Below, piece by piece: positions 33,678 to 47,360 of a stretch of 64,000 bases of DNA (position 1 is the stretch's first letter; each line of letters begins with the position of its first letter). The notes beneath the pieces were generated by a model that saw nothing but the letters and a program-made list of their open reading frames with translations, had not been told where the DNA came from and did no database searches. The stretch lies in assembly GCF_000373925.1 (NCBI RefSeq), contig NZ_KB892801.1, positions 1 through 64,000 on the forward strand. Reading direction: 5' to 3'. The position numbers and the translations under genes are program-made. Origin of the DNA: Actinopolymorpha alba DSM 45243 (GTDB lineage Bacteria; Actinomycetota; Actinomycetes; Propionibacteriales; Actinopolymorphaceae).

Positions 33678-33867
33678 GAAACCCTCCTGTGCCGAACTGC
33701 GTACGAGGGTTTCTACTGTGCCAGATTGATCGTCCGAGCGCTGGTTGGCCTTGCCCCGCGTCTCACCGTAGCGAGGGATCGGTCGTGCTGGAAGCGCCTT
33801 GTAAATAAGGCGGTTTCGCGGTCGTCGCCGGTTGCGAGTATGATCGTGATCAGCTAAACTCGAACGT

Positions 33868-35619
33868 ATGAGCGACGGCGATGGTGTGCGGACCTCTCCG
33901 CTCCCGCCCGGGTTTGCTGAGATGCTTCCCGGTCCGGGGTTGGCGGTGGCGTTCGCTGCTGTCGACCAGTCGGCGTGTAACGGGTTCGAGTTGGGGGAGC
34001 TGGTTCGTGCCGCGCGGAAGCTCGCTTGCTGGGCTGAGTACCTGAGTCTTGGTGCTGTGAATGCGTTGGCGCACTGCCCGCCCTGCTTCAAAGACGATGA
34101 GGCGGAACGGTCATCTCAGCCAGAGCCGCGTGCGGCTGAGCTGCTGGCGCCGCTGTTGGGGTGGACCAACTACCGCGCCGACCAGTTCATGCTCATCGCC
34201 CTCGCCCTGACGGACCTGCCCAACACTCGTGGGGCGTTGGAACGCGGTGAACTCGAATACGCTGAGGTTCGCACGATCGTCGACCGGCTCAGCCTTCTCT
34301 CTCCGGCTGACCGCGCTTTGGTGGATGCGGCGATCTTCCCCGAGGTGTTGAAACTACGGGGCGGGCTGCTACGGCTCTACATCGAAGCCGAAACCATCAA
34401 GATCAACCCCGAAGCGGCGAAAGAACGCCACAAGAGGGCCCGCGGAGACCGTGGTGTGGCCGTCTACCCCGACGTGGACAACGTCTCTACCCTCCGCCTC
34501 CATGGCATCTCCCACGACCAAGCCGCCCAAGCCTGGGCCTACATCGATGCGATCGCCCGCACCGAGAAGGCACGCGGGGACGAACGCACCCTCCCCCAAC
34601 TACGCGCCGACATCGCCGTCTCCATCCTCTCCGGCGAAGCCGACGTGATCATCTGCGACGGACCGCCTGAAGCTGACGGAGAGGAGAACCCTTCCGGCGA
34701 GGACTGCGAATGCGAGAAGGGTGACGGGAAGAAGGGTGACGGGAAGAACGGCGACGACGCCGGCCCGTGTCAAGGTCCCTTTGACGACCTGCTCGACGAG
34801 CAGGACCAGGCCAACAATCCTGCGGAAGCTGAGCAGGATGGGTGCCCGCACACTGGGTGCGACCACGAGCACCACCTCGAGGGTTGCCCGTGTGAGGACT
34901 GCAAACCCGCCACTTACACCCACCCCCTCGACCAGCCCCGACGTCAGGCCCGCAATGACGGCGCGACCGGCGAGGGCGCCGCGGCCCTGAGAGGCCGCGA
35001 ACCCGGAAGCGGTCGGGGTGAGGACGGTGATCGGGAACCGATCCCCGAGCAGGAGATCCCTCTTGCGTTCCGGTCCTGGAGAGCTGCGGTCAAGGCGAAG
35101 CTTCAGCTGAATGTGCCGATCACGACACTGTTCGAGCTGGCGGAGCGGCCCGCGGAGCTTGGCGGGTTCGGGCCGGTGCTCACCGAAGTAGCGCGGCGGT
35201 TGATCGCGAACCATCTGGATAATCCGGATGCGATGTTCGCGATCGGTGTCACCCATCCGGTGACGGGGCAGTTGTTGAGTCTGCATCCGATGGCGCAACG
35301 TTTCTTACGCGGTCTTCCAGCGGAGTTCGTGCAGTCGTTGAACCAGCGCTGCACCTGGATGCTCTGTAGGCGCCCAGCGATCTCCTGCGACCTCGACCAC
35401 ACCAAACCGTACGCTCAAGGCGGCGAAACCTCGGTCGAAAACGTGGCACCACTGTGCCGTCGCCACCACCGCGTGAAAACTGAAGGCGACTGGAAAGTCG
35501 AGCAAACCAGCCCAGGACACCTCACCTACACCGATCCGCACAGCCGGCAGTACCAGGTGACCCCACTCCGCCTCACCGATTCCGTAGAACCCGACGATCC
35601 CGATCCCCCACCGTTCTAA
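33868..35619 (+). CDS. DUF222 / HNH endonuclease protein (REP13E12-like)
   Basis: 583-aa protein. The N-terminal DUF222 region runs to about residue 280 (VDQSACNGFELGELVRAARK, LTDLPNTRGALERGELEYAE), followed by an acidic, Cys/His-bearing insert (EDCECEKGDGKKGDG; GCPHTGCDHEHHLEGCPCED) and a C-terminal HNH nuclease: CTWMLCRRPAISCDLDHTKP, then NVAPLCRRHHRVK, with DH, N and HH of the motif present. These proteins are repeated in actinobacterial genomes and are thought to be selfish or repair-related; the function is not established. This copy is intact. The ATG at 33868 is the start shared with copy 2. Confidence 0.92.
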   Translation: MSDGDGVRTSPLPPGFAEMLPGPGLAVAFAAVDQSACNGFELGELVRAARKLACWAEYLSLGAVNALAHCPPCFKDDEAERSSQPEPRAAELLAPLLGWTNYRADQFMLIALALTDLPNTRGALERGELEYAEVRTIVDRLSLLSPADRALVDAAIFPEVLKLRGGLLRLYIEAETIKINPEAAKERHKRARGDRGVAVYPDVDNVSTLRLHGISHDQAAQAWAYIDAIARTEKARGDERTLPQLRADIAVSILSGEADVIICDGPPEADGEENPSGEDCECEKGDGKKGDGKNGDDAGPCQGPFDDLLDEQDQANNPAEAEQDGCPHTGCDHEHHLEGCPCEDCKPATYTHPLDQPRRQARNDGATGEGAAALRGREPGSGRGEDGDREPIPEQEIPLAFRSWRAAVKAKLQLNVPITTLFELAERPAELGGFGPVLTEVARRLIANHLDNPDAMFAIGVTHPVTGQLLSLHPMAQRFLRGLPAEFVQSLNQRCTWMLCRRPAISCDLDHTKPYAQGGETSVENVAPLCRRHHRVKTEGDWKVEQTSPGHLTYTDPHSRQYQVTPLRLTDSVEPDDPDPPPF

Positions 35620-35650
35620 CCAGCACGGGAAAGCGGGACAAGCAAACAAG

Positions 35651-35698
35651 CCGGCAGGCTCGAAAACCCTTACAAAGAAGGGCTATCGAGCCTGCCGG
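35651..35698. terminator. Hairpin ending the DUF222-HNH element, copy 1
   Basis: 13-bp perfect stem ccggcaggctcga / tcgagcctgccgg, with a second nested stem (aaccctt / aagggct, one mismatch). It is 32 bp after the stop. The same hairpin with a different inner stem ends copy 2. Confidence 0.85.
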
Positions 35699-35719
35699 CA
35701 TGCCTGAGACGGGGTGGGG

Positions 35720-36178
35720 CTACGACGAGGTGGGATGGCGGAGGCTGGTGGCGTGGTGGGCGAGTCCTTCGGCGCAGGCCTTGATGAAGTCCCCGAGCAC
35801 CCGGCGGTAAAGCCATCCCGTGCCCGGCACCTTCGCGTCGAACGTCGAATGCCAGTGGATCGAGCAGCCGCCATTGCTGGGCTCGAGGTCGACGTTCGCC
35901 CGATAGTCGCGGAGAGGCAGGCCGGACATCAATGCGTAGCCGTAGCGTCGCCCGGGGATGAGTTCGACAACCTGCTCGTAGCTGGCGATTTTCTGGCCAC
36001 GCCATCTACTACGGAAGACCCGGACCGAGCCCAGACCAGAGGGATCGCCGGCCTCGGAAAGCTCGAACGACTCGAACGGCGACCACTCCGGCCAGGTCGT
36101 ACCGTCCACCAGGAGCGCATACACGGCATCCGGGTCGGCGTTCGCCTGCACGTTCACGTCGATGCGGTGGCGGCCCAC
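35720..36178 (-). CDS. SRPBCC-family protein (polyketide cyclase/START-like)
   Basis: 152-aa single-domain protein: HRIDVNVQANADPDAVYALL, TTWPEWSPFESFELSEAG, then SIHWHSTFDAKVPGTGWLYR. This is the usual size and layout of SRPBCC ligand-binding proteins, which bind lipids or aromatic compounds; catalysis is uncertain. The GTG at 36176-36178 is chosen because gaggaggacgct precedes it at ideal spacing and it leaves the TetR palindrome outside the gene; an ATG at 36217 would put the operator inside. It diverges from the TetR gene at 36230 and is the likely regulated target. Confidence 0.82.
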   Translation of the reverse strand: MGRHRIDVNVQANADPDAVYALLVDGTTWPEWSPFESFELSEAGDPSGLGSVRVFRSRWRGQKIASYEQVVELIPGRRYGYALMSGLPLRDYRANVDLEPSNGGCSIHWHSTFDAKVPGTGWLYRRVLGDFIKACAEGLAHHATSLRHPTSS

Positions 36179-36202
36179 AGCGTCCTCCTCGTATGAACCA
36201 AG

Positions 36203-36216
36203 TGGTACACGTACCA
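36203..36216. promoter_or_regulatory. TetR operator between the SRPBCC and TetR genes
   Basis: TGGTAC-AC-GTACCA is a perfect 6-bp inverted repeat, followed by a related ggtacg at 36220. It lies 25 bp from the SRPBCC start and 14 bp from the TetR start. Confidence 0.68.
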
Positions 36217-36229
36217 TACGGTACGCACT

Positions 36230-36961
36230 ATGGAAGGAACAGCGGGCGTGGCGGGGGCAGAAGCGGCCGAGACAAACGTGGCCGAAACAGAGCTGGCCGA
36301 AACAGAGCTGGCCGAGACAAAGCTGGGTGAGACAGAGCTGGACGGGACAAACGTGGCCGAGCGCGAGCCGGCGAGCGCGAAGGACCGGCTGCTGCGGGCA
36401 GCGGTCGAGCAGGTAGCCGTGCAGGGGGTGAGCGGTCTCAGCCTCAGGCAGCTGGCCGCCGCTCTCGGGACCAGCCACCGGATGCTCATCTACCACTTCG
36501 GCTCCAAGGAGGGCCTCCTCGTCGAGCTCCTCCGCGTGGTCGAACGCCAGCAGCGCGACGCGCTCGCCGACCTCCGGCGTGACCTGGATGCCGCCAGTAC
36601 CCCCGGAACGACGGATGCCCGCGAGGCGGCGGTCGAGATCGCCCGGAGGTTCTGGCGCCGGCTGGCCGACCCCGCGCTCTGGCCGTACGAACGCCTCTTC
36701 TTCGAGGTCTATGGCCAGGCCCTGCGGGAGGGTTCCCCGATGGCGTCCCTGCTCGAGGGCATCGTCGACTCCTGGCTCGATCCCCTCACGGAGCTGACCC
36801 GCCGGCTCGGCGTTCCTTCGCCAGTGGCCCGCGATCACGCTCGGCTCGGCCTCGCGGTCACCCGAGGGCTCCTCCTCGACCTGCTGGCCACCGGTGACCG
36901 CGCCGGCGCCGACCGTGCGATGGAGGCCTTCATCGCGACCAGCCGCGTACTGCCGACCTGA
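36230..36961 (+). CDS. TetR-family regulator with repetitive N-terminal extension
   Basis: 243-aa regulator. Residues 13-42 consist of pentapeptide repeats (AETNV, AETEL, AETEL, AETKL, GETEL, DGTNV) encoded by six 15-bp units. The DNA-binding domain follows: SAKDRLLRAAVEQVAVQGVS, then LSLRQLAAALGTSHRMLIYH and FGSKEGLLVEL, with a C-terminal ligand domain. The acidic, Thr-rich leader is not part of the fold and is unusual in TetR proteins. A GTG or ATG downstream of the repeats is not obvious, so the leader is probably translated. It likely represses itself and the SRPBCC gene. Confidence 0.88.
   Translation: MEGTAGVAGAEAAETNVAETELAETELAETKLGETELDGTNVAEREPASAKDRLLRAAVEQVAVQGVSGLSLRQLAAALGTSHRMLIYHFGSKEGLLVELLRVVERQQRDALADLRRDLDAASTPGTTDAREAAVEIARRFWRRLADPALWPYERLFFEVYGQALREGSPMASLLEGIVDSWLDPLTELTRRLGVPSPVARDHARLGLAVTRGLLLDLLATGDRAGADRAMEAFIATSRVLPT
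36266..36355 (+). repeat. Tandem 15-bp repeat in the TetR gene
   Basis: Six consecutive 15-bp units with core gccgaaacagagctg encode AETEL-type pentapeptides. Two units are identical; the first and the last but one share the gacaaacgtg ending. Confidence 0.9.
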
Positions 36962-37058
36962 CCGTCTCCGCATCACCCACCCGGGGTGATGCGGAGGCTG
37001 GCGAAGCGGTCCGACTCTTGAGCCGTACGCCGCTACGGCCGATGGGAGCCTGGCCGCG

Positions 37059-38813
37059 GTGGACGGCGCTGGCTGCGGTGGACGGCAGTGGCGCGGAGAG
37101 CGCACGCTGGCGGGGTTGAGGGGGCTGGCTGCGGTGGGCCGGTGGAAGGCGCTCATAGTCCTGGGCACTGCGCAGTTCCTGATGGTGCTTGACACCTCGG
37201 TGATGAACGTCTCGGTCAGCCAGCTGGTCAAGGAGTTCGATACCGAGGTCACCGCCATCCAGGCGGTCATCACGCTCTACACGCTGGTGATGGCGGCGTT
37301 CATGATCGCCGGCGGCAAGGCCGGCGATCTGTGGGGCCGGCGGCGGATGTTCACCGTCGGTCTGATCGTGTACGGCGTGGGGTCCGCGATCACAGCGACG
37401 GCACCGGTCCTCGGCTTGCTCGCCCTCGGATGGTCGGTCATCGAGGGGTTCGGGGCTGCCCTGGTGCTGCCCGCGCTCGCCGCGCTCGTCGGCGGCAACT
37501 ACGCGGGACGGGAACGAGCGGTCGCGTACGGCGTGATCGGCGGGCTCGCCGGCGCGGGTATCGCGGTCGGTCCGCTCCTCGGCGGCTGGGTGACGACGTA
37601 CCTCACCTGGCGGCTCGTCTTCGCCGGCGAGGTCGTTCTCGTCGTCGTACTCCTCCTGCTCGTGGGTTGGATCCGGGAGGCGCCACGACCGGAGAGCCGG
37701 CCGCAGTTCGACGGGGTGGGTGCCGCGCTCTCCGCGCTGGGCCTCGCGATGGTCGTACTGGGAGTGCTGCAGAGCAGCAGTTGGGGCTGGCTCAAGCCAC
37801 GGAACTCACCCGTCACGATCTTCGGTTTCTCGCTCACGCCGTTCGTCATCGCCGCCGGGCTGGTGACGCTCGGGTTGTTCCGGATGTGGGAACGACGCCG
37901 CGAGGAGCGGCGGCAGACGCCGTTGATCAGGTTCGAGCTGTTCGGCATCGCGCCGCTGCGGTCGGGCCTGTGGGTGCTGCTCGCCCAGAACCTCATCCTG
38001 CTCGGCATCTTCTTCACGATCCCGCTGTACCTGCAGATCGTGCAGGGCTTCGACGCGTTCCAGACCGGGCTCCGGCTGCTGCCGGCCTCGATCACGATGC
38101 TGGTGGCGGCGATGAGTGGACCGCTGCTCGGGCGGATCGCGAGCCCGCGCCGGGTGGTTCGAGTGGGCCTGCTCGTGCTGCTCGTCGCGACGCTGTGGCT
38201 GCTCGCGACGATCCAGCCGAAGATCGACAACACATCGTTCGCGCTGGCGATGGGCCTGCTCGGCATCGGCATGGGGCTGCTCGCCTCACAGCTGGGGAAC
38301 GTCGTCCAGTCCAGCGTCGGTGAGTCGGCCCGCAGCGAGGTGGGCGGGCTGCAGTACACCGCCCAGAACCTCGGCTCCTCGCTCGGCACCGCCCTGATCG
38401 GTTCGATCCTGATCGGTGCCCTGACCGCCGCCGTCACCCACGAGCTCAGCGTGAGCAGGCAGCTGTCCGCGACGGTGAAGCAACAGCTAGGGATCGCGCT
38501 GGAAGCCGGTGTGAACTTCGTCTCGACCGGGCAGGTCCGCGCCTCACTGGAGCACGCCGGTGTACCACCCGACCAGGTGAACGTGGTCGTCAACAGTTAT
38601 GCCCAGGCACAGCTGGTGGGTTTGAAGATCGCGCTGCTCACGGCCGCGGCGATCGCGCTGGCCAGCCTCTGGCTGACCGCCGGACTGCCGGGCACGAAAC
38701 AGGCCGGCGGGGAACGGATGTCCCCGCCGGCCCAAGATCCGGCAACAGCCGGTCAGCCCCCGCTCTTGCGACGGAACGAACGCTTGCTCCGAGCGGGTCC
38801 GAAGCCGTCCTGA
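37059..38813 (+). CDS. MFS transporter, DHA2 (EmrB/QacA-like)
   Basis: About 584-aa membrane transporter with roughly 14 helices. Marks are FLMVLDTSVMNVSVSQLVKE (TM1 with the D-x-S motif), GGKAGDLWGRRRMFTVGLIV (motif A), and GAGIAVGPLLGGWVTTYLTW (motif C region). DHA2 pumps use the proton gradient to expel drugs, antiseptics or natural products. The start is uncertain: GTG 37059 gives a 25-residue lead; GTG 37134 (VGRWKALIV), after a gaggggg stretch, may be the real one. It lies 97 bp after the TetR gene on the same strand, but whether that regulator controls it is unknown. The end overlaps the convergent DUF5302 gene by 61 bp. Confidence 0.88.
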   Translation: MDGAGCGGRQWRGERTLAGLRGLAAVGRWKALIVLGTAQFLMVLDTSVMNVSVSQLVKEFDTEVTAIQAVITLYTLVMAAFMIAGGKAGDLWGRRRMFTVGLIVYGVGSAITATAPVLGLLALGWSVIEGFGAALVLPALAALVGGNYAGRERAVAYGVIGGLAGAGIAVGPLLGGWVTTYLTWRLVFAGEVVLVVVLLLLVGWIREAPRPESRPQFDGVGAALSALGLAMVVLGVLQSSSWGWLKPRNSPVTIFGFSLTPFVIAAGLVTLGLFRMWERRREERRQTPLIRFELFGIAPLRSGLWVLLAQNLILLGIFFTIPLYLQIVQGFDAFQTGLRLLPASITMLVAAMSGPLLGRIASPRRVVRVGLLVLLVATLWLLATIQPKIDNTSFALAMGLLGIGMGLLASQLGNVVQSSVGESARSEVGGLQYTAQNLGSSLGTALIGSILIGALTAAVTHELSVSRQLSATVKQQLGIALEAGVNFVSTGQVRASLEHAGVPPDQVNVVVNSYAQAQLVGLKIALLTAAAIALASLWLTAGLPGTKQAGGERMSPPAQDPATAGQPPLLRRNERLLRAGPKPS

Positions 38814-39025
38814 ACCTTCGAGGAGGTCAGGTTGGCGTCGGCCTCCCGGCGGTCGTGGTGTTGGCGCCGCTTGCGATCCAGGCTCTCGCGGAACTTGCGG
38901 CGTACGTCTTCCTCTGATTCTTCTGAGCCCGCTGCGTCCGGGCTGGAAGGCTCCTCGCCCGAGGCCGCCTCCGCGGGCGATTCTGCGGGCGATGCTTCGT
39001 CGTGCGTCTGATCTTGGCCAAGCAT
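38753..39025 (-). CDS. DUF5302-family small protein
   Basis: 90-aa hydrophilic protein. An acidic N-terminus is followed by EEDVRRKFRESLDRKRRQHH and a C-terminal KRSFRRKSGG, the pattern of the actinobacterial DUF5302 family, whose function is unknown. The ATG is at 39023-39025. Its 3' end lies inside the end of the convergent MFS gene; this overlap and the strong family C-terminus argue that both frames are real. Confidence 0.82.
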   Translation of the reverse strand: MLGQDQTHDEASPAESPAEAASGEEPSSPDAAGSEESEEDVRRKFRESLDRKRRQHHDRREADANLTSSKVQDGFGPARSKRSFRRKSGG

Positions 39026-39092
39026 GGTTCCAGCCTGGCATGCTTCACCGCTCCACGCGAGACCATTTCGTCCTGAGTTTCAGTATCGAGCC

Positions 39093-40616
39093 TCAGGTTC
39101 GTACGCCAGTTCGGTCTCGTCCGGGCTGACGCAGGACGGCGAACGCCACGACGAGGGCCGCGACGAGGAGGCCCGCGCCCACGCCGAACGCGAGCCGGTA
39201 GCCGCCGGTCAGGGCCTCGGCCTGGCTGCCACCGACCGCGAGCAGGTCGTCACTGTGGGCCGCCGCCAACGTCAACAGCACCGCGACCCCCAACGCACCA
39301 CCGATCTGCTGGGTGGTCGAGAACAGCCCGGAGGCAAGACCGGCATCGTCGTTCCGCGCTCCTGACATGCCGAGCGCGGTCAGTGCCGGGAGAGCGAGGC
39401 CGAAGCCGCCACCGAGCAACATCACCGGAAGCAGATCGGTGACGTAGTCCGCGTGGACAGGGATGCGAGCGAGCAGGCCGAGCAGCCCGACCAGGAGGAG
39501 GAGCCCCGTCAACAGGACCTTGCGCTCGCCGAAGCGTGCGTTCAGGCGGGCGGAAACGCCCAGCGACACCACGCCGATGACGACTGCCGCCGGGAGCATC
39601 GCCAGACCGGTCCGGGCGGCGCCGTACCCCAGCACCTTCTGCAGGTAGAGCGCAAGGACGAACTGGAACGAGAACAGCGCGGCCACCATGAGGATCTGGA
39701 CCAGGTTGGCCCCCGAGACGCTGCGCGACCGGAAGATCCGTAGTGGCATGAGCGGCGTCCGGGCGGTGGCCTGGCGGATGACGAACCCGGCGAGCAGGGC
39801 GGCGGCGAGGGCGCCCAGGCCGAGCGTGGACGCCGAGGTCCAGCCGTACTCCTCGACCCTGACCACGGTGAAGATCCCGAGCATCAGTCCGGCGGTGACG
39901 AGCAGCGCGCCGATGACGTCGGCGCCGGCCGCGAGTCCCAGCCCTCGATCGGCGGGCAGTACCCGCGCGGCGACCACGAAGGTCACCAGCCCGATCGGCA
40001 GGTTGATGAGGAAGATCCAGTGCCAGCTGAGTACGTCGGTGAGTACGCCGCCGAGCACCGAACCGATCGATGCACCGGCCGCGCCGGTGAAGCTGAACAC
40101 CGCGATCGCCTTCGCCCGCTCGCGCGGCTCGGTGAACAGCGTGACGAGGATGCCCAGGCTGACGGCGGAGGCCATCGCACTGCCCACGCCCTGGAGGAAC
40201 CGCGCCGCGATCAGGGTCGCGGGCGAGGTGGCCAGGCCCGCCAGGAGCGAGGCCGCGGTGAACACCGCGGTCCCGGCCAGGAACATCCGCTGGCGGCTGA
40301 CCAGGTCGCCGAGGCGGCCGGCCAGCAGGAGCAGGCTGCCGAACGCGATCAGGTACGCGTTGACGACCCAGCTCAGGCTGGCCGGGGAGAAGTCGAGGTC
40401 CTGCTGGATGGCCGGCATAGCCACGGTCACGACGCTGCCGTCGAGGACGGTCATGAGCATGCCGGTGGCAAGCACGCTGAGGGCGAGCCAGCGGGATCGG
40501 GAAACGGTGGCCGATCGGGCGTCAGACGGAACTGGCGAGGGAGCCTCAGTTGGCGGCGGGGCCGGAGATGGTGGCGGGGCCGGAGATGGCGAGGCGGCCG
40601 GAGACGGAGCGGACAT
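39093..40616 (-). CDS. MFS transporter, DHA2 (multidrug efflux type)
   Basis: 507-aa transporter of the 14-helix DHA2 class. SVLATGMLMTVLDGSVVTVA is TM1, LAGRLGDLVSRQRMFLAGTA is motif A, and GASIGSVLGGVLTDVLSWHW is the motif C region. The first roughly 38 residues are Ser/Pro-rich (PSPAPPPSPAPPPTEAPSPV) and cytoplasmic. The ATG at 40616 follows caggagag, which can be sequestered by a perfect hairpin (40624-40648). The MarR gene lies directly upstream on the same strand, and a palindrome sits in between, so a MarR-controlled drug pump is likely. Confidence 0.9.
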   Translation of the reverse strand: MSAPSPAASPSPAPPPSPAPPPTEAPSPVPSDARSATVSRSRWLALSVLATGMLMTVLDGSVVTVAMPAIQQDLDFSPASLSWVVNAYLIAFGSLLLLAGRLGDLVSRQRMFLAGTAVFTAASLLAGLATSPATLIAARFLQGVGSAMASAVSLGILVTLFTEPRERAKAIAVFSFTGAAGASIGSVLGGVLTDVLSWHWIFLINLPIGLVTFVVAARVLPADRGLGLAAGADVIGALLVTAGLMLGIFTVVRVEEYGWTSASTLGLGALAAALLAGFVIRQATARTPLMPLRIFRSRSVSGANLVQILMVAALFSFQFVLALYLQKVLGYGAARTGLAMLPAAVVIGVVSLGVSARLNARFGERKVLLTGLLLLVGLLGLLARIPVHADYVTDLLPVMLLGGGFGLALPALTALGMSGARNDDAGLASGLFSTTQQIGGALGVAVLLTLAAAHSDDLLAVGGSQAEALTGGYRLAFGVGAGLLVAALVVAFAVLRQPGRDRTGVRT

Positions 40617-40623
40617 GCGATCT

Positions 40624-40648
40624 CTCCTGTCAGTCGAAACGACAGGAG
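40624..40648 (-). promoter_or_regulatory. Leader hairpin that can sequester the MFS ribosome-binding site
   Basis: On the minus-strand mRNA the arms ctcctgtc and gacaggag (8 bp, 9-nt loop) pair perfectly. The downstream arm contains the Shine-Dalgarno sequence aggag, 8 nt before the ATG. Folding would block initiation. This is a structural prediction only. Confidence 0.55.
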
Positions 40649-40658
40649 GGACCGTAGC

Positions 40659-40682
40659 AGATAGTTCTGTTAGAGACTATCT
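40659..40682. promoter_or_regulatory. Palindrome between MarR and MFS genes (candidate MarR operator)
   Basis: agatagt and actatct form perfect 7-bp arms around a 10-bp centre, 43 bp upstream of the MFS start. Size and location fit a MarR-family site. Confidence 0.6.
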
Positions 40683-40726
40683 ACCTCGGGTCTAACTCGG
40701 ATCGGAACCGGGTTCGACCGCGCGTC

Positions 40727-41212
40727 CTACCTCTGGTGCTGGCGAGCCCGCCTCGCTGTCTGGCCCTGGTCGACCCGGGCCAGCTGCCCGGTCGCGAGGT
40801 GGTTCAGGATGCGCAGGAAGACCTCGCGGTCCGCTTCGGGGAGTGCCGCCAGGGCCTCCCTGTGGACGCGGTCGACGATCTCCTGGCTCTTCCTCGCGAC
40901 CCGGGTGCCCTCTTCGGTGACCGCGATGATCCGGGCGCGCCGGTCCTGGCTGGAGGGGCGGCGTTCGGCGAGTCCGGCCTTCTCCAGGGCGTCCACCGTC
41001 ACGACCATGGTGGTCTTGTCCATGTCGCCGATCTCGGCGAGCTGGATCTGGGTGCGTTCCTCCTCCAGCGCGTGGACAAGGACGCAGTGCATGCGCGCGG
41101 TGAGGCCGATCTCGGCGAGCGCGGCTGCCATCTGGGTACGCAGGACGTGGCTGGTGTGGTCGAGGAGGTACGACAGGTCCGGCTCGGTGCGGGTGGGTGC
41201 CATGGCGGTCAT
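40727..41212 (-). CDS. MarR-family transcriptional regulator
   Basis: 161-aa winged-helix regulator: LSYLLDHTSHVLRTQMAAAL, GLTARMHCVLVHALEEERTQ, IQLAEIGDMDKTTMVVTVDA (recognition helix), and GLAERRPSSQDRRARIIAVT (wing with the DxRxR motif). The ATG at 41212 (MTAMAPTR) or 41203 gives the normal family length; longer frames upstream are not similar. It probably represses the MFS pump downstream on the same strand, with the palindrome at 40659 as candidate site. Confidence 0.88.
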   Translation of the reverse strand: MTAMAPTRTEPDLSYLLDHTSHVLRTQMAAALAEIGLTARMHCVLVHALEEERTQIQLAEIGDMDKTTMVVTVDALEKAGLAERRPSSQDRRARIIAVTEEGTRVARKSQEIVDRVHREALAALPEADREVFLRILNHLATGQLARVDQGQTARRARQHQR

Positions 41213-41311
41213 GCGTACCAGCGTAGCGATTGGATCCGTGACAGATAATCCAGAAGAAGACCGGCATTCCGCTCGATCGGGACCGCATCGGAAACCCCTG
41301 CCGGTCCAGCC

Positions 41312-41342
41312 ATAGATTGTCGGCGAACGTGAGATTGTCGGC
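41312..41342. promoter_or_regulatory. Direct repeats upstream of the disulfide-reductase-like gene
   Basis: agattgtcggc occurs at 41314-41324 and again at 41332-41342, 18 bp apart. The first copy is part of atagattgtc, which also occurs at 44686-44695 upstream of the GH15 gene. Possibly a shared regulator site. Confidence 0.45.
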
Positions 41343-41394
41343 ATATGTGCGCCAGCCGGGACGGCTGGTTCGACCGAGGAGGAGGCGGGGCGCG

Positions 41395-42804
41395 ATGCCG
41401 GCGACGGTGGCGACGTCCGATCTGGACGTGGATGTGGTCGTGATCGGTGCCGGACCGGCCGGCGAGACGGCGGCGGGGCGTTGTGCGGACGCCGGGCTCG
41501 CGGTGGCGATCGTCGAGCGGGAGTTGGTCGGCGGCGAGTGTTCGTACTGGGGTTGTATCCCGAGCAAGACACTGATCCGGCCGGGCGACATCGTGGCGGC
41601 CGCGCGCCGGGCCCCGGGCGCCGCCGAGGCGGTGACCGGGAACGTCGACGCCGCCGCGGCGTTCGCCCAGCGCGACTACATGACCAACAACTGGAACGAC
41701 GCGGGACAACTCGGCTGGCTTGACGACAAGGGGATCGTGTTCGTACGCGGTACCGCCCGGCTGGCCGGCGAGCGTGTCGTGGAGGTCGAAACCGCCGAGG
41801 GTGGCAAGCAGAGGTTGACGGCGCGCCGGGCGGTGGTCCTCGCCACTGGTACGACACCGCTGATGCCCCCGATCGACGGCCTCGCCGACGTGCGTCCATG
41901 GAACAACCGCACCATCACCGCCGCCAAGCAGGTGCCGCGCCGGCTGCTCGTCCTCGGCGGAGGAGCCGTGGGTACGGAGATGACGCAGGCCTGCCGCCGC
42001 CTGGGCAGCGAGGAGGTGACCATCGTCGACGGCGCGCCGCGGTTGCTGTCCCGTGAGGAGCCGTTCGTCGGCGAGGAGGTGCGGGCCGCCTTTGAGGCAG
42101 AGGGAATTCGCGTCCACACCGGCGTACGCGCGAATGCGGTGCGGCGCGAGGGTGACGGCCCGGTGGTCGCCACGCTGTCAGACGGTCGGCAGCTCACGGC
42201 GGACGAGATCCTGGTCGCGGTCGGACGCCGGCCGGCCACGACGCGGGTGGGGCTGGAGACCGTGGGGCTCACGCCGGGGGAGCACGTCCAGGTCGATGCC
42301 CGGATGCGCGCCACTGGCGTGCCCGGCGACTGGCTCTACGCGATCGGCGACTGCAACGGGCGGGCGCTGCTCACGCACATGGGCAAGTATCACGGCCGGG
42401 TGGTCGGCGACGTTATTGCTGGACGTGACGTCGGCGCCGGCGCGACCGACGTGGTGCCGCGCGTGACGTTCACCGATCCGCAGGTGTGTGCGGTCGGGAT
42501 GACCGAGGCGGACGCGGTTGCCGCGGGGCTGCAGATCCGTTGTGTGACGTACGGAACGGGCAACGTGGCTGGTGCGTACGTGCAGGGGAACGGCATCACG
42601 GGCACGAGCAAGCTCGTCGTGGACACGCAACGCCGGGTTGTCATCGGTGCGACGTTCACCGGGCCTGGCATCCAGGAACTCCTGCACTCGGCCACGGTGG
42701 CGATCGTGGGACGCGTCGACCTTGCCGACCTCTGGCATGCGGTCCCGTCGTTTCCCACGGTGAGCGAGGTGTGGCTGCGCCTCCTGGAGGCGTACGGCCT
42801 GTGA
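41395..42804 (+). CDS. Pyridine nucleotide-disulfide oxidoreductase (lipoamide/mercuric reductase-like)
   Basis: 469-aa class-I flavin disulfide reductase. The FAD site is VVVIGAGPAGETAAGRCADA, the redox pair sits in GGECSYWGCIPSKTL (CxxxxC), the NAD site is RLLVLGGGAVGTEMTQACRR and YAIGDCNGRALLTHMGKYH binds flavin. The C-terminal active-site motif HPT...E is altered to HAVPSFPTVSE, so it is probably not a true lipoamide dehydrogenase. No E1/E2 or mer genes are adjacent. The ATG at 41395 follows gaggaggaggcggggcg; the frame upstream contains the promoter repeats. It diverges from the MarR gene. Confidence 0.9.
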   Translation: MPATVATSDLDVDVVVIGAGPAGETAAGRCADAGLAVAIVERELVGGECSYWGCIPSKTLIRPGDIVAAARRAPGAAEAVTGNVDAAAAFAQRDYMTNNWNDAGQLGWLDDKGIVFVRGTARLAGERVVEVETAEGGKQRLTARRAVVLATGTTPLMPPIDGLADVRPWNNRTITAAKQVPRRLLVLGGGAVGTEMTQACRRLGSEEVTIVDGAPRLLSREEPFVGEEVRAAFEAEGIRVHTGVRANAVRREGDGPVVATLSDGRQLTADEILVAVGRRPATTRVGLETVGLTPGEHVQVDARMRATGVPGDWLYAIGDCNGRALLTHMGKYHGRVVGDVIAGRDVGAGATDVVPRVTFTDPQVCAVGMTEADAVAAGLQIRCVTYGTGNVAGAYVQGNGITGTSKLVVDTQRRVVIGATFTGPGIQELLHSATVAIVGRVDLADLWHAVPSFPTVSEVWLRLLEAYGL

Positions 42805-42814
42805 CAGCGGAGTT

Positions 42815-44656
42815 TTACCGGGGCTCGTTGGTCGCGGCGGCGTTCTCCGCCTGGCTGATCTCCCAGGCCGCGTTGATGAGACCGATGTGACTGAACGCCT
42901 GCGGGAAGTTGCCGAGGAGTTCGTGGCTCACGGGATCGACCTCCTCCGCGAGCAGGCCGACATCGTTGGCATGTGCGGCGGCGCGTTCGAAGACCGCGTG
43001 CGCCCGATCAATCTGGCCTGACAGTGCGAGGGTGTGGGCGAGCCAGAACGTACACATGAGGAAGGTGCCCTCCTCGCCGGCCAGACCGTCAACCCCGCCT
43101 TGCGTGTGGTAGCGGTGGACCAGGCCCTGGTCGTCGGTGAGACGTTCACTGATCGCGTCGATCGTCTTGAGCATGCGCGGATCATCGGCGGGCAGGAAAC
43201 GGACGATGGGCAAGGTGAGAGCGGAGGCGTCGAGTTCGCGGGAGCCGAAGTATTGCGTGAACGCGCCGACTTCGTCATTCCAGCCATCCCTGAGGATAGT
43301 GCGGCGAATCTCGTCGCGAGTTCTCCGCCAGGTGTCGACCCGGTCAGCTGCGCCGAGCAGAGGGCCAAGCGCGAGGGCGCGGTCGAGCGCCGCCCAGCAC
43401 ATCACCTTCGAATGCAGGAAATGCTTGGGGGCGCTGCGTACCTCCCAGATTCCGTGGTCGGTCTCACGCCAACGTTCGGCGGCGGCGTCCGCACAGTCCA
43501 CGAGGAAGCGGCGGGTCTCGTCGTCGATGCCGGTGAGGTAGTCCGCGAGTCGATCGGCCGCGCAGAGAATCTCGCCGTACACGTCGATCTGCCGCTGGTC
43601 CCACGCGCCGTTGCCGATACGGACAGGACGGCTGCCCCTCCAGCCGCGAAGATGTGGCAACGTGCGTTCGGACAGGTCGCGTTCGCCGCCCACGCCGAAC
43701 ATGATCGGAAGCCACTTTTCCGTGCTCAGCGAGGGGGCGGCGGCCGTGAGGAAGGCGAAGAAGTCGTTCGCCTCGTCGGGGCAGGCAGCGACCCAGAGCG
43801 CTTCCAGGGTGAGGCTCGCATCGCGTACCCAGCTGTAGCGGTAGTCCCAGTTGCGTTCGCCGCCTTCCGCCTCCGGCAGGGAGGTCGTGGCGGCTGCCAC
43901 GATGGCGCCGGTGGGTTGGAAGGTCAGGGCCTGGAGTACGCGCCCGCTGTGGTGGACGTGGTGGTGCCACGGTCCGACGTAGGCCTGGTGGAGATCTGAC
44001 CAGGAGCGCCAGGCCGCGATGGTGGAGTCCAGCCGGTCGGCGAGCTCGGCCTGCTCCCAGACCCGAGCGGGTGGTTGCTCGAGAGTCGAGCAGTGCAAGC
44101 CAAAATAGAGCGTCGTACCAGCATCGATGGTGACATCCGCGACGGCCCCGTCGTGACCGATGTCGAGCCTGACCGGCGTGGTGAGCACCAGCAGGCGGGC
44201 GCCCGTGCGGGCGGTTACGCCGCTCGTTGTCTCGGTGAGGATGGGGTTGATGAGGCCGTATTCCGGTCGTGGGTGGTACGCGATGTGGATGGGGACGCTG
44301 CCTTGTGTGCAGTGAAGACGACGGATCACCAGATGTGGAACGTCGGCGCCGAGCCGGTGCCCCGCATTGTCGTGGCCGAGCGCGAACGCGTCAGTGAGAA
44401 CGACCGTCCCTGATCCGGTGTGGAACGTCGTCTCCAGCACCATCGTCTGGTCGAGGTAGCGTCGGCTCGTCTCGAACCATCCCGAGGGACGGATCGACCA
44501 GTGGCCGGCATTGTCGTCGAGCAGGCGGGCGAAAATCGACGGGCTGTCGAATCTCGGAGAGCACAACCAGTCGAGCGAGCCGTGGTGGCTGACCAGGGCC
44601 GCGGAATGCCGATCGGAAAGAATCGCGTAATCGGCGATGGGTGTCGTACTCATCAT
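42815..44656 (-). CDS. Glycoside hydrolase family 15 protein (glucoamylase/trehalase-like)
   Basis: 613-aa GH15 enzyme. An N-terminal beta-sandwich (IADYAILSDRHSAALVSHHG, DWLCSPRFDSPSIFARLLDD) is followed by the alpha-toroid: NWDYRYSWVRDASLTLEALW, HGIWEVRSAPKHFLHSKVMC with the first catalytic Glu, and GLLAEEVDPVSHELLGNFPQ with the second. Cytoplasmic members in actinobacteria include trehalases and glucoamylases; the substrate cannot be decided here. No signal peptide. The ATG is at 44654-44656, with a second Met at once. The stop is 10 bp from the convergent oxidoreductase stop. Confidence 0.92.
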   Translation of the reverse strand: MMSTTPIADYAILSDRHSAALVSHHGSLDWLCSPRFDSPSIFARLLDDNAGHWSIRPSGWFETSRRYLDQTMVLETTFHTGSGTVVLTDAFALGHDNAGHRLGADVPHLVIRRLHCTQGSVPIHIAYHPRPEYGLINPILTETTSGVTARTGARLLVLTTPVRLDIGHDGAVADVTIDAGTTLYFGLHCSTLEQPPARVWEQAELADRLDSTIAAWRSWSDLHQAYVGPWHHHVHHSGRVLQALTFQPTGAIVAAATTSLPEAEGGERNWDYRYSWVRDASLTLEALWVAACPDEANDFFAFLTAAAPSLSTEKWLPIMFGVGGERDLSERTLPHLRGWRGSRPVRIGNGAWDQRQIDVYGEILCAADRLADYLTGIDDETRRFLVDCADAAAERWRETDHGIWEVRSAPKHFLHSKVMCWAALDRALALGPLLGAADRVDTWRRTRDEIRRTILRDGWNDEVGAFTQYFGSRELDASALTLPIVRFLPADDPRMLKTIDAISERLTDDQGLVHRYHTQGGVDGLAGEEGTFLMCTFWLAHTLALSGQIDRAHAVFERAAAHANDVGLLAEEVDPVSHELLGNFPQAFSHIGLINAAWEISQAENAAATNEPR

Positions 44657-45356
44657 GTGCTCGCGGTGGGCTATCTCATAGACGGATAGATTGTCTTTGT
44701 GTCTACCAAATGTTCAGTTCGGGTTAGGACCGTTGAGTTCATGAAATGAAGCGATTGTGTGGCCGATTGGTTCGTTTCTGCTGCCTTCTGTTGGGCTTCA
44801 CTTTGACTTCTTCGGAAGCCTTGACGGGGCAGTTGGGCGGTGCCTAGGCTCAGGCGCCAGAGGCGCAGGTGAACAGCAATGTCGGCCCCCTCTCCGCCTG
44901 ATGCCTGCGCCTCTAACCATGTTCTCTCAGGTGCGGCCATGCTCTGTCATGCGTGATCATGGGCAGCATCGGATGTCTGTTCCTCCAGCATGCTCCGCCG
45001 TTGGAGTCGGGGTTTGTGATTCCCGGCCGCTGACGTCTGGTGCTTCGTCGGATCCCCTTGTCTTGGGCGCAGTTGGCCGCCGGCAGCGGTGAGCATCCGG
45101 AACTACCGCGGTTGATCAACTTCGCCGGAGCAGCGGGCCATGATGAAGGCGCGGCCTTATGTCTCAGCATCCGGGTAGGCAAGGTGTGCGCCCTGAGGCC
45201 TATTGAGAACGTCCGCCGTTCGGCTCCGCCGCCACAGGGGGGCGTTTGGGTGGGCCCCCACGGCGAGCCGCCAGTTGACTCACGGGCCGGACGGCCTGGG
45301 ACTGGTCTATGCGAGATCGCTCGCGGGGCTTTCGGTGACTCGGTGATGGAAGCGCG
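44657..45356. other. 700-bp gene-free region
   Basis: No frame here looks coding. It contains the likely GH15 promoter with atagattgtc at 44686-44695 and the arms tagac / gtcta around it. An 11-bp perfect inverted repeat agaggcgcagg / cctgcgcctct lies at 44859-44869 / 44904-44914. The right end is next to the DUF222-HNH element copy 2. Low-complexity frames on both strands around 44913-45386 lack ribosome-binding sites and family similarity. Confidence 0.6.
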
Positions 45357-45405
45357 CCGGCAGGCTCGATAACCCTTTGTTTTCAAGGGTTCTCGAGCCT
45401 GCCGG
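45357..45405. terminator. Hairpin ending the DUF222-HNH element, copy 2
   Basis: Stem ccggcaggctcga / tcgagcctgccgg with nested aaccctttg / caagggtt pairing, 33 bp after the pseudogene stop on the minus strand. It matches 35651-35698 in outer stem and position. Confidence 0.85.
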
Positions 45406-45438
45406 TTTGTTTGCTGTCCCGCATCTTCCCGGGTCCAG

Positions 45439-47153
45439 CTAGAACGGCGGCGGGTCCGGATCGTCGGGTTCGACGGGGTCGGTGAGGCGTGGTGGCGTGA
45501 CCGTGTATTGCCGGCTGTGCGGGTCGGTGTACTGGAAATGGCCTGGGCTGGTTTGTTCGACTTTCCAGTCGCCTTCGGTTTTGACTCGGTGGTGGCGGCG
45601 GCACAGTGGCGCCACGTTGTTCACCGAGGTTTCGCCACCCTCGGAGTAAGCCTTCGTATGGTCAAGGTCGCAGGAGATCGCTGGGCGTCGACACAGCATC
45701 CAGGTGCAGCGCTGGTTGAGTGACTGCACAAACTCCGCCGGAAGACCGCGTAAGAAGCGTTTCGACAGCGGATGCAGGCTCAACAACTGCCCGGTCACCG
45801 GGTGCGTGATACCGATGGCGAACATCGCGTCGGGGTTGTCGAGATGGTTCGCGATCAGCCGCCGCGCTACTTCGGTGAGCACGGGCCCGAACCCGCCAAG
45901 CTCGGCTGGCCGTTCCGCCAGCTCGAACAGGGTCGTGATCGGCACATTCAGCTGAAGCTTCGCCTTGATCGCCGCCTTCCAGGACCGGAACGCGAGCGGG
46001 ATCTCCTGCTCGGCAAGGTCGCCCTCGCCGGGGATCCTCTCGCGGGACCCGCTGTCGCTGCTGGGTCGACGTGCTGGCCGGTCCAACGGATGCGTGTAGG
46101 TGGCGGGCTTGCAGTCCTCACACGGGCACCCCACAAGGTGGTGATCGTGGTCGCATCCGGTGTGCCGGCACCCGTCCGCCATGCTGCCTGAGTCGTGTTC
46201 AGCGTCGGCCTGGGAAGAGCTGTCAGCGTTGTCCTGCTCGTCGAGCGGGTCGTCAAAGGATCCTTGACGGGCGCTGGAGTCGTCGCTGTTCTCCCCGTCG
46301 TCCTTCTCGCAGGTGCAGTCTTCGCCGGGAGGGTTTTCCTCTCTACCGGCTTCGGGTGTGCTGTCGCAGATGAGGACGTCTGCCTGGCCGGACAGGATGG
46401 AGATGGCGATGTCAGCGCGCAATTGCGGGAGGGTGCGTTCGTCCCCGCGTGCTTTCTCGGTGCGGGCGATGGCGTCGAGGTATGCCCAGGCTTGGGCGGC
46501 TTGGTCGTGGGGATGCCGTGGAGGCGGAGGATGGAGACGTTGTCGATGTCGGGGTAGACGGCCACGCCCCGGTCGTCGCGAGCCCTCTTGTGCCGCTCTT
46601 TCGCAGCCTCGGGGTTGATCTTCACGATTTCGGCTTCGACATAGAGCCGCAACAGCCCACCCCGCAGTTTCAGCACCTCGGGGAAGATCGCCTCATCCAC
46701 CGCCGCGCGGTCAGCCGGAGGGAGCGAAGCGAGCCGGTCGACGATCGTCCGCACCTCAGAGAACTCCAACTCCCCGCGTTCCATGGCCTGCCGGGTGTTG
46801 GGCAAGTCAGTCACGGCCAAGGCAATGAACATGAACTGATCAGCGCGGTAGTTGGTCCACCCCAACATCGGCGCAAGCAGCTCAGCCGCGCGTGGCTCCG
46901 GCACAGACGAGCGTTCCGCCTCATCGTCCTTGAAGCAGGGCGGGCAGTGCGCCAGAATCTGTGTGTCGCCAAGGCTCAACGCCTCAGCCCAGCGAGCAAC
47001 CTTCCGACCCGCGCGGACCAGCTCCCCCACCTCAAACCCGTTACAGGCAGACCGATCGACGCCAGCAAGCGCGGCCACCAACTCCGGACCGGGAAGCATC
47101 TCAGCAAACCCGGGCGGGAGCGGAGAGATCCGCACACCATCGCCGTCGCTCAT
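45439..47153 (-). pseudogene. DUF222 / HNH endonuclease gene, frameshifted copy
   Basis: The N-terminal part (47153 down to about 46516) and C-terminal part (from about 46510 to 45439) are in different frames. Alignment with the intact copy shows one missing base: the intact gene has ggcatctcccacgacc where this copy has ggcatccccacgacc (plus-strand ggtcgtggggatgcc near 46502-46516). After the shift the first frame runs on as nonsense (TPSPAPRKHAGTNAPS) to 45948. The second half keeps a complete HNH motif (CDLDHTKAYSEGGETSVNNV, PLCRRHHRVK). Few other differences have built up, so inactivation is recent, or the base is a sequencing error. Confidence 0.85.
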
Positions 47154-47360
47154 GTGTTCGAATTTAGCCGATCAAGATCATGGTTCGCAACCGGCGAGGA
47201 CGTCGAAACCCCTTATTTACAAGGAGATTCACTTCTTTGCCTGAGTGGTCGCAGACCGGACCCTCAGCCCTGGGCGGCAGCCAGCCGGCAGCCTGGCCGG
47301 GAGCCAGTCTAGCCGGGCCTGACTGGACGCGGAAATGCCGACGACCGCGACCATGGCAGC

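Follow-up and report, generated by a model that had tools for sequence, protein, structure and literature searches.

Two inverted DUF222-HNH units and the segment between them

Within the window (the whole 64,000-nucleotide stretch of Actinopolymorpha alba DSM 45243 DNA that was analysed), two DUF222-HNH units lie in inverted orientation and bracket ~9.7 kb, as the first-pass annotation had reported. The common left mark and right hairpin that it described were likewise found at both units. The features are as follows.

33791-35702 (+): unit 1, a complete DUF222-HNH unit from dyad to hairpin (sequence comparison)
33791-33815 (+): left dyad of unit 1, of the type GAA-n3-CCTTGTAAATAAGG-n3-TTC, core at 33797-33810
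33832-33860 (+): promoter-like site of unit 1, TTGCGA, 17-nt spacer, TAAACT, ending 7 nt before the ATG (read from sequence)
33868-35619 (+): intact 583-aa DUF222-HNH protein of unit 1 (PF02720 and PF01844 profile matches)
35650-35699 (+): right hairpin of unit 1, CCGGCAGGCTCGA...TCGAGCCTGCCGG, core CCCTTACAAAGAAGGG (pattern search, folding)
35703-45351: segment between the units, outside the repeat, ~9.65 kb, with TetR, two MFS, oxidoreductase and GH15 genes
36230-36961: TetR gene
37059-38813 and 39093-40616: MFS genes
41317-42804: frame of a pyridine nucleotide-disulphide oxidoreductase
42815-44656: GH15 gene
45352-47230 (-): unit 2, inverted and frameshifted by a 1-nt deletion near 46505 (sequence comparison)
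45357-45405 (-): right hairpin of unit 2, core CCCTTGAAAACAAAGGG (pattern search, folding)
45439-47153 (-): frameshifted coding sequence of unit 2, N-terminal frame from 47153 and HNH frame ending at 45439
47206-47230 (-): left dyad of unit 2, core at 47211-47224 (pattern search)

Each unit follows the same order, from a dyad with the core CCTTGTAAATAAGG through a promoter-like pair and the coding sequence to a strong hairpin that closes ~80 nt past the stop codon. The promoter-like site of unit 1 has a leaderless-like layout as read from its spacing, and this layout recurs in most of 28 left ends from the same genome. Both right hairpins have a folding energy of -40 kcal/mol (z -8.2 and -9.6). 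The two units are 82.1% identical over 1856 aligned columns, with ungapped blocks at 79-86% and a longest identical run of 44 nt, and the flanks of one are unrelated to those of the other, as first described. Such proximity would also arise by chance: for 40 randomly placed units, 2.3 pairs of neighbours within 12 kb of each other are expected, and the window pair is not special by position.

The first-pass annotation proposed that the bracketed segment could flip, a claim that the comparison with relatives did not bear out. The window and four congeners agree in the order and orientation of RidA, a short conserved ORF, DUF1707 and ctaD, and a fifth relative (G003) has the short ORF, GH15, DUF1707 and ctaD arranged as in the window; we assign the name DUF1707 by reading the protein rather than by a search. 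Since gene order and orientation match those of the relatives, the segment shows no inversion. That the unit pair exists as an invertible switch, flipping the 9.7-kb segment to control its pumps, is thus very improbable: inverted 1.9-kb arms at 82% identity do exist, but the segment is oriented as in relatives that carry no units, the longest identical run is short, and two units this close need no special explanation. A genome with 30-40 units also holds many inverted pairs besides this one.

In the relatives checked, the interval from RidA or GH15 to ctaD holds no DUF222 gene, so both window units are present in the window lineage but missing from the corresponding locus of those relatives. 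To that extent the empty sites looked for in relatives exist, but no clean one was found at base level; for unit 2 against G003, the flanks did not align near the insertion. The short conserved ORF lies between the two MFS genes (38760-38970, minus strand) and adjoins RidA in congeners, its best 58-64 nt being 86-90% identical to theirs. The conserved stretch at 38857-38914 was considered as a tRNA or other RNA, for which ARAGORN and Rfam gave no match, and it reads as a short ORF.

A multicopy family with fixed ends

The window belongs to a genome assembly (G000) of 7.98 Mb in 127 contigs, in which a search for further units with the same ends returned many. BLAST located 40 main places, some being half units where a contig break divides a copy, and 28 distinct left ends with unrelated flanks could be read; we estimate ~30-40 copies. 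At least 26 of the 254 contig ends fall inside units, so the family breaks the assembly, the true copy number is uncertain, and short-read assemblies undercount the family. A genome_contigs scan with the single protein as query returned nothing.

The core CCTTGTAAATAAGG occurs exactly at 10 places in the genome, all 10 upstream of a unit; with up to one mismatch there are 30 sites, of which 27 are at units and 1 precedes another DUF222 gene, and the reversed control pattern has none. The right-hairpin pattern has 21 genome sites, against 0 for its control. The left mark proves to be the core of a longer dyad, GAAnnnCCTTGTAAATAAGGnnnTTC, and in the window species the conserved part begins at the GAA of this dyad and ends a few bases past the hairpin, fixed ends that are common to the copies by both left-end reading and per-position information. 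Among left ends of the window species the dyad shows no covariation beyond composition, which argues for a dyad rather than a selected hairpin. The core of the right hairpin is often like that of the left (CCTTGAAAACAAGG versus CCTTGTAAATAAGG), and a related core, CCTTGnAAAnAAGG, occurs at both ends in the window species; this likeness suggests that one recogniser may serve both unit ends.

These common ends bear on simple segmental duplication, in which the gene would have been copied merely by lying within the duplicated stretch. Three other units (L168, L169 and L172) have in common 78-153 nt of right flank beyond the hairpin, unlike the remaining units, which may be a further repeat or reflect a duplication that included flanking sequence. 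However, the flanks of the window pair lack homology and the same ends recur at dozens of further units, which makes such a duplication extremely improbable as the origin of the pair. Neither of the two outcomes that the first-pass annotation named as refuting its reading was thus observed.

The dyad core also occurs, as CCTTGTAAACAAGG and CCTTGAAAACAAGG, upstream of very different DUF222-like proteins (L085, at G000 C39:95776, and L049, in G025), one of which belongs to another bacterial family. The exact left mark is mostly absent at the several other DUF222 subfamilies checked. A second multicopy DUF222 subfamily of ~434 aa is present in G000 (L221, L222, L227, L229 and L231, on contigs C106, C46, C25, C58 and C40), its promoter regions closely resembling one another and its flanks being unrelated; several members are preceded by a hairpin of the type GGGGGCACCCTTG...CAAGGGTGCCCCC. 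In G007, from another genus of the same family, there are at least 17 DUF222 matches (L234-L240); the majority are 420-aa genes that closely resemble one another and here, too, homology stops near the stop codon.

Concerted evolution and site occupancy in congeners

We read 52 units in four congeners (G001, G002, G004 and G005) and defined 15 shared loci by flanks on both sides, measuring identity over the last 510 nt of the units. Cross-species pairs at a shared locus (n=41) have a mean unit identity of 82.5%, and unrelated cross-species pairs (n=955) one of 82.6%; within-species pairs (n=330) average 87.1% and reach 99%. In 40 of 42 cases a unit's nearest neighbour comes from its own species, and it is never the ortholog. 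The flanks of shared-locus pairs average 87.8% identity, higher than that of the units in 39 of 40 cases. In trees, units cluster near-perfectly by species and hardly by locus: mapped as a trait, species requires 4 changes, against a minimum of 3 and a shuffled value of 28, and locus requires 38, against a minimum of 14. The control gene ctaD has the normal, opposite pattern in the same genomes, with orthologs at 94.1% and same-species paralogs at 82.1%.

At several loci (0, 3, 7 and 11) the sequence just past the stop codon aligns base for base in two species, which indicates that the place was inherited while its content was replaced. Recombination is also evident within genomes: in a PHI-type test 0 of 200 permutations reached the observed value in each of the four genomes tested, G000 included, and mosaicism among units is strong in all of them. 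The locus-versus-species test applies to the congeners, and for the window species the evidence is mosaicism. The comparison demonstrates gene conversion, or an equivalent replacement process, confined to the unit. At the level of sequence comparison, then, copies hold their places and are rewritten from one another, so that those within one genome stay alike, and gene conversion between resident copies, as read from these alignments, is the strongest signal in the data.

The ends themselves differ between lineages. Congener repeats end at the stop codon: information per position is 1.5-1.9 bits up to there, 0.4-1.3 bits at the base that follows and near zero a few bases further. The right hairpin is absent in congeners, and thus represents an addition specific to the window's lineage, while the left dyad is conserved as a CTTGTGGGTAAGGGGTTTC-like sequence. 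Three congener units (L129, L130 and L145) lack the usual promoter; what precedes their start instead is other sequence with a Shine-Dalgarno-like GAGGAGAGGGAC.

The species differ in which sites are occupied, and the absences are real. At one congener site G001 and G005 carry a unit and G002 and G004 do not, and another site is vacant in G004; a unit on contig C2 of the window species is absent from three congeners, along with neighbouring DNA. Read at base level, two presence/absence sites in the congeners have imprecise junctions that carry no target-site duplication. At one vacant site the beginning of the following gene is missing, which points to deletion.

The first-pass annotation had described a discrete unit that moved or was copied. 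The repeated unit, its fixed ends and its many sites hold; as neither a target-site duplication nor a clean vacant site was found, the data do not establish conventional transposition. The corresponding explanation is a true transposon, whose dyad and right hairpin would be termini worked by the DUF222-HNH protein or another enzyme as copies jump. Consistent with it are the fixed ends, the unrelated flanks of 28 distinct left ends, the related core CCTTGnAAAnAAGG at both ends in the window species and sites unoccupied in relatives. Nevertheless, we consider it unlikely, given the imprecise vacant sites, the long times for which many sites have been common to species, and a right hairpin that congeners lack. 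In addition, ten complete G000 units are 79.5-87.2% identical with no near-identical recent copies among them, although an assembly could hide identical ones.

The protein, a proposed mechanism and its setting

The 583-aa protein matches PF02720 (DUF222) at 35.4 bits (cut-off 24.4) and PF01844 (HNH) at 25.0 bits (cut-off 21.4); searches of NCBIfam and PADLOC gave no match. Across 37 proteins, some less than 20% identical, C495, C500, H511, N525, C530, H533 and H534 are invariant, and 12 of the 13 invariant columns fall at positions 478-571, in or adjoining the HNH domain. Among intact G000 copies the HNH part has a dN/dS of 0.07 and the DUF222 part one of 0.17, ratios that indicate strong purifying selection on the HNH domain. 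By sequence this domain is nearest to IscB (E 1e-5), and among solved structures IscB and McrA-type nucleases come closest to it. The predicted fold of DUF222 has a mean pLDDT of 88.9; in VIA-align ParB, Noc and KorB fill the 12 best rows (Z 9.1-6.4), ahead of the first unrelated row at Z 5.8, and Foldseek gave no significant match for the same model. A likeness to the ParB/Noc/KorB DNA-binding domain is therefore suggestive, since on a helical model a Z of ~9 may reflect a common arrangement. ParB/Noc/KorB proteins bind palindromes, and the predicted ParB-like fold would fit the palindrome at the left end of the unit.

We propose a multicopy chromosomal DUF222-HNH family that evolves in concert because its nuclease binds the dyad and cuts copies that are repaired from their sisters, an account that is on balance probable. 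Copies would sit for long periods at stable places and be repeatedly overwritten from sister copies by gene conversion, new places being occupied and lost more slowly than copies are overwritten. The N-terminal DUF222 domain would recognise the palindromic dyad at the left end and perhaps, in the window species, the similar core of the right hairpin; lying ~20 bp upstream of the promoter, the dyad could serve autoregulation as well. The C-terminal IscB/McrA-like HNH domain would then nick or cut one copy, host recombination would repair it from another, and misrepair could create new sites. The data show the many copies, their fixed ends, their homogenization across a species, recombination among them, selection for the HNH domain and an occupancy that differs between species; that DUF222 recognises DNA, that sister copies are cut and that cutting drives conversion and spread are the steps that we infer. 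The occurrence of the left mark before divergent DUF222 genes and the near absence of the units from the phages and plasmids searched speak for this mechanism; the lack of the exact mark at several other subfamilies, and two base-level vacant sites with imprecise junctions, at least one deletion-like, speak against it.

RecA-dependent conversion between any repeats could, however, homogenize copies without a nuclease. The family may accordingly be passive, a host gene homogenized by ordinary RecA-dependent conversion in which its own nuclease is uninvolved, the role of the HNH protein lying elsewhere. Conversion between long repeats needs homology alone, dN/dS far under 1 fits a useful host protein, and in M. 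tuberculosis conversion of REP13E12 occurs alongside that of the PE/PPE and esx families, which encode no nuclease (PMC13061034). We regard this explanation as somewhat unlikely, because near-complete loss of the locus signal at 15 loci is extreme for dispersed copies that are 80-90% identical, and because occupied places differ between genomes.

The proposed cut-and-repair family resembles several known systems in part. Its known counterpart is the REP13E12 (13E12) family of M. tuberculosis, which is of the same kind, with dispersed multicopy DUF222-HNH units and gene conversion, but that family has 14 annotated genes in H37Rv compared with the ~30-40 copies here, and the present units are bounded by a conserved left dyad and a right hairpin. 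A phiRv1-type prophage attachment site is reported for the REP13E12 repeat. As in HNH homing endonucleases, an HNH nuclease gene would be copied by break repair; in contrast to them, the units have no intron or intein, interrupted host gene or shown recognition of an empty target, and conversion is between resident copies. IscB and IS200/IS605-type elements provide the nearest HNH by sequence and have hairpins near their ends, yet no RuvC-like part, TnpA or guide RNA was identified in the units, whose ends are a dyad upstream of the promoter and a hairpin past the stop. Likeness to ParB, Noc and KorB concerns the predicted fold of DUF222 residues 52-182; unlike in those proteins, DUF222 is joined to an HNH nuclease, and neither sequence similarity nor a CTPase domain was found. 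REP13E12 is reported as a leading gene conversion hotspot of M. tuberculosis, with 87 events (PMC13061034), and its units have been listed as REP13E12/HNH endonuclease/DUF222 repeats (PMC10589994). Twenty-six concertedly evolving prokaryotic genes, mostly members of complexes or pathways, have been described in a paper whose main text contains neither 'endonuclease' nor '13E12' (PMC6053082); there too same-species paralogs are closer than orthologs, but the present case is a dispersed nuclease family. Cross-species erasure of locus identity, exact ends, the dyad and the ParB-like fold are unreported for DUF222 in the open-access literature searched, most subscription papers lying outside that scope, and as far as checked they are new.

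DUF222-HNH genes occur in 104 of 117 genomes of the order and are present in M. tuberculosis. The species comparison directly answers part of the question of how they spread and what they do, in that copies stay put and are rewritten from each other, and the dyad together with the ParB-like fold makes binding and cutting simply testable. It is conceivable, though quite doubtful, that the units are self-propagating elements of a new kind, in which a ParB-like domain finds its own palindrome, HNH cuts sister copies and misrepair seeds new sites. Were this so, conversion would keep every copy in the genome alike and intact, and the family would amount to a gene drive between copies within one chromosome, operating without transposase, intron or intein.
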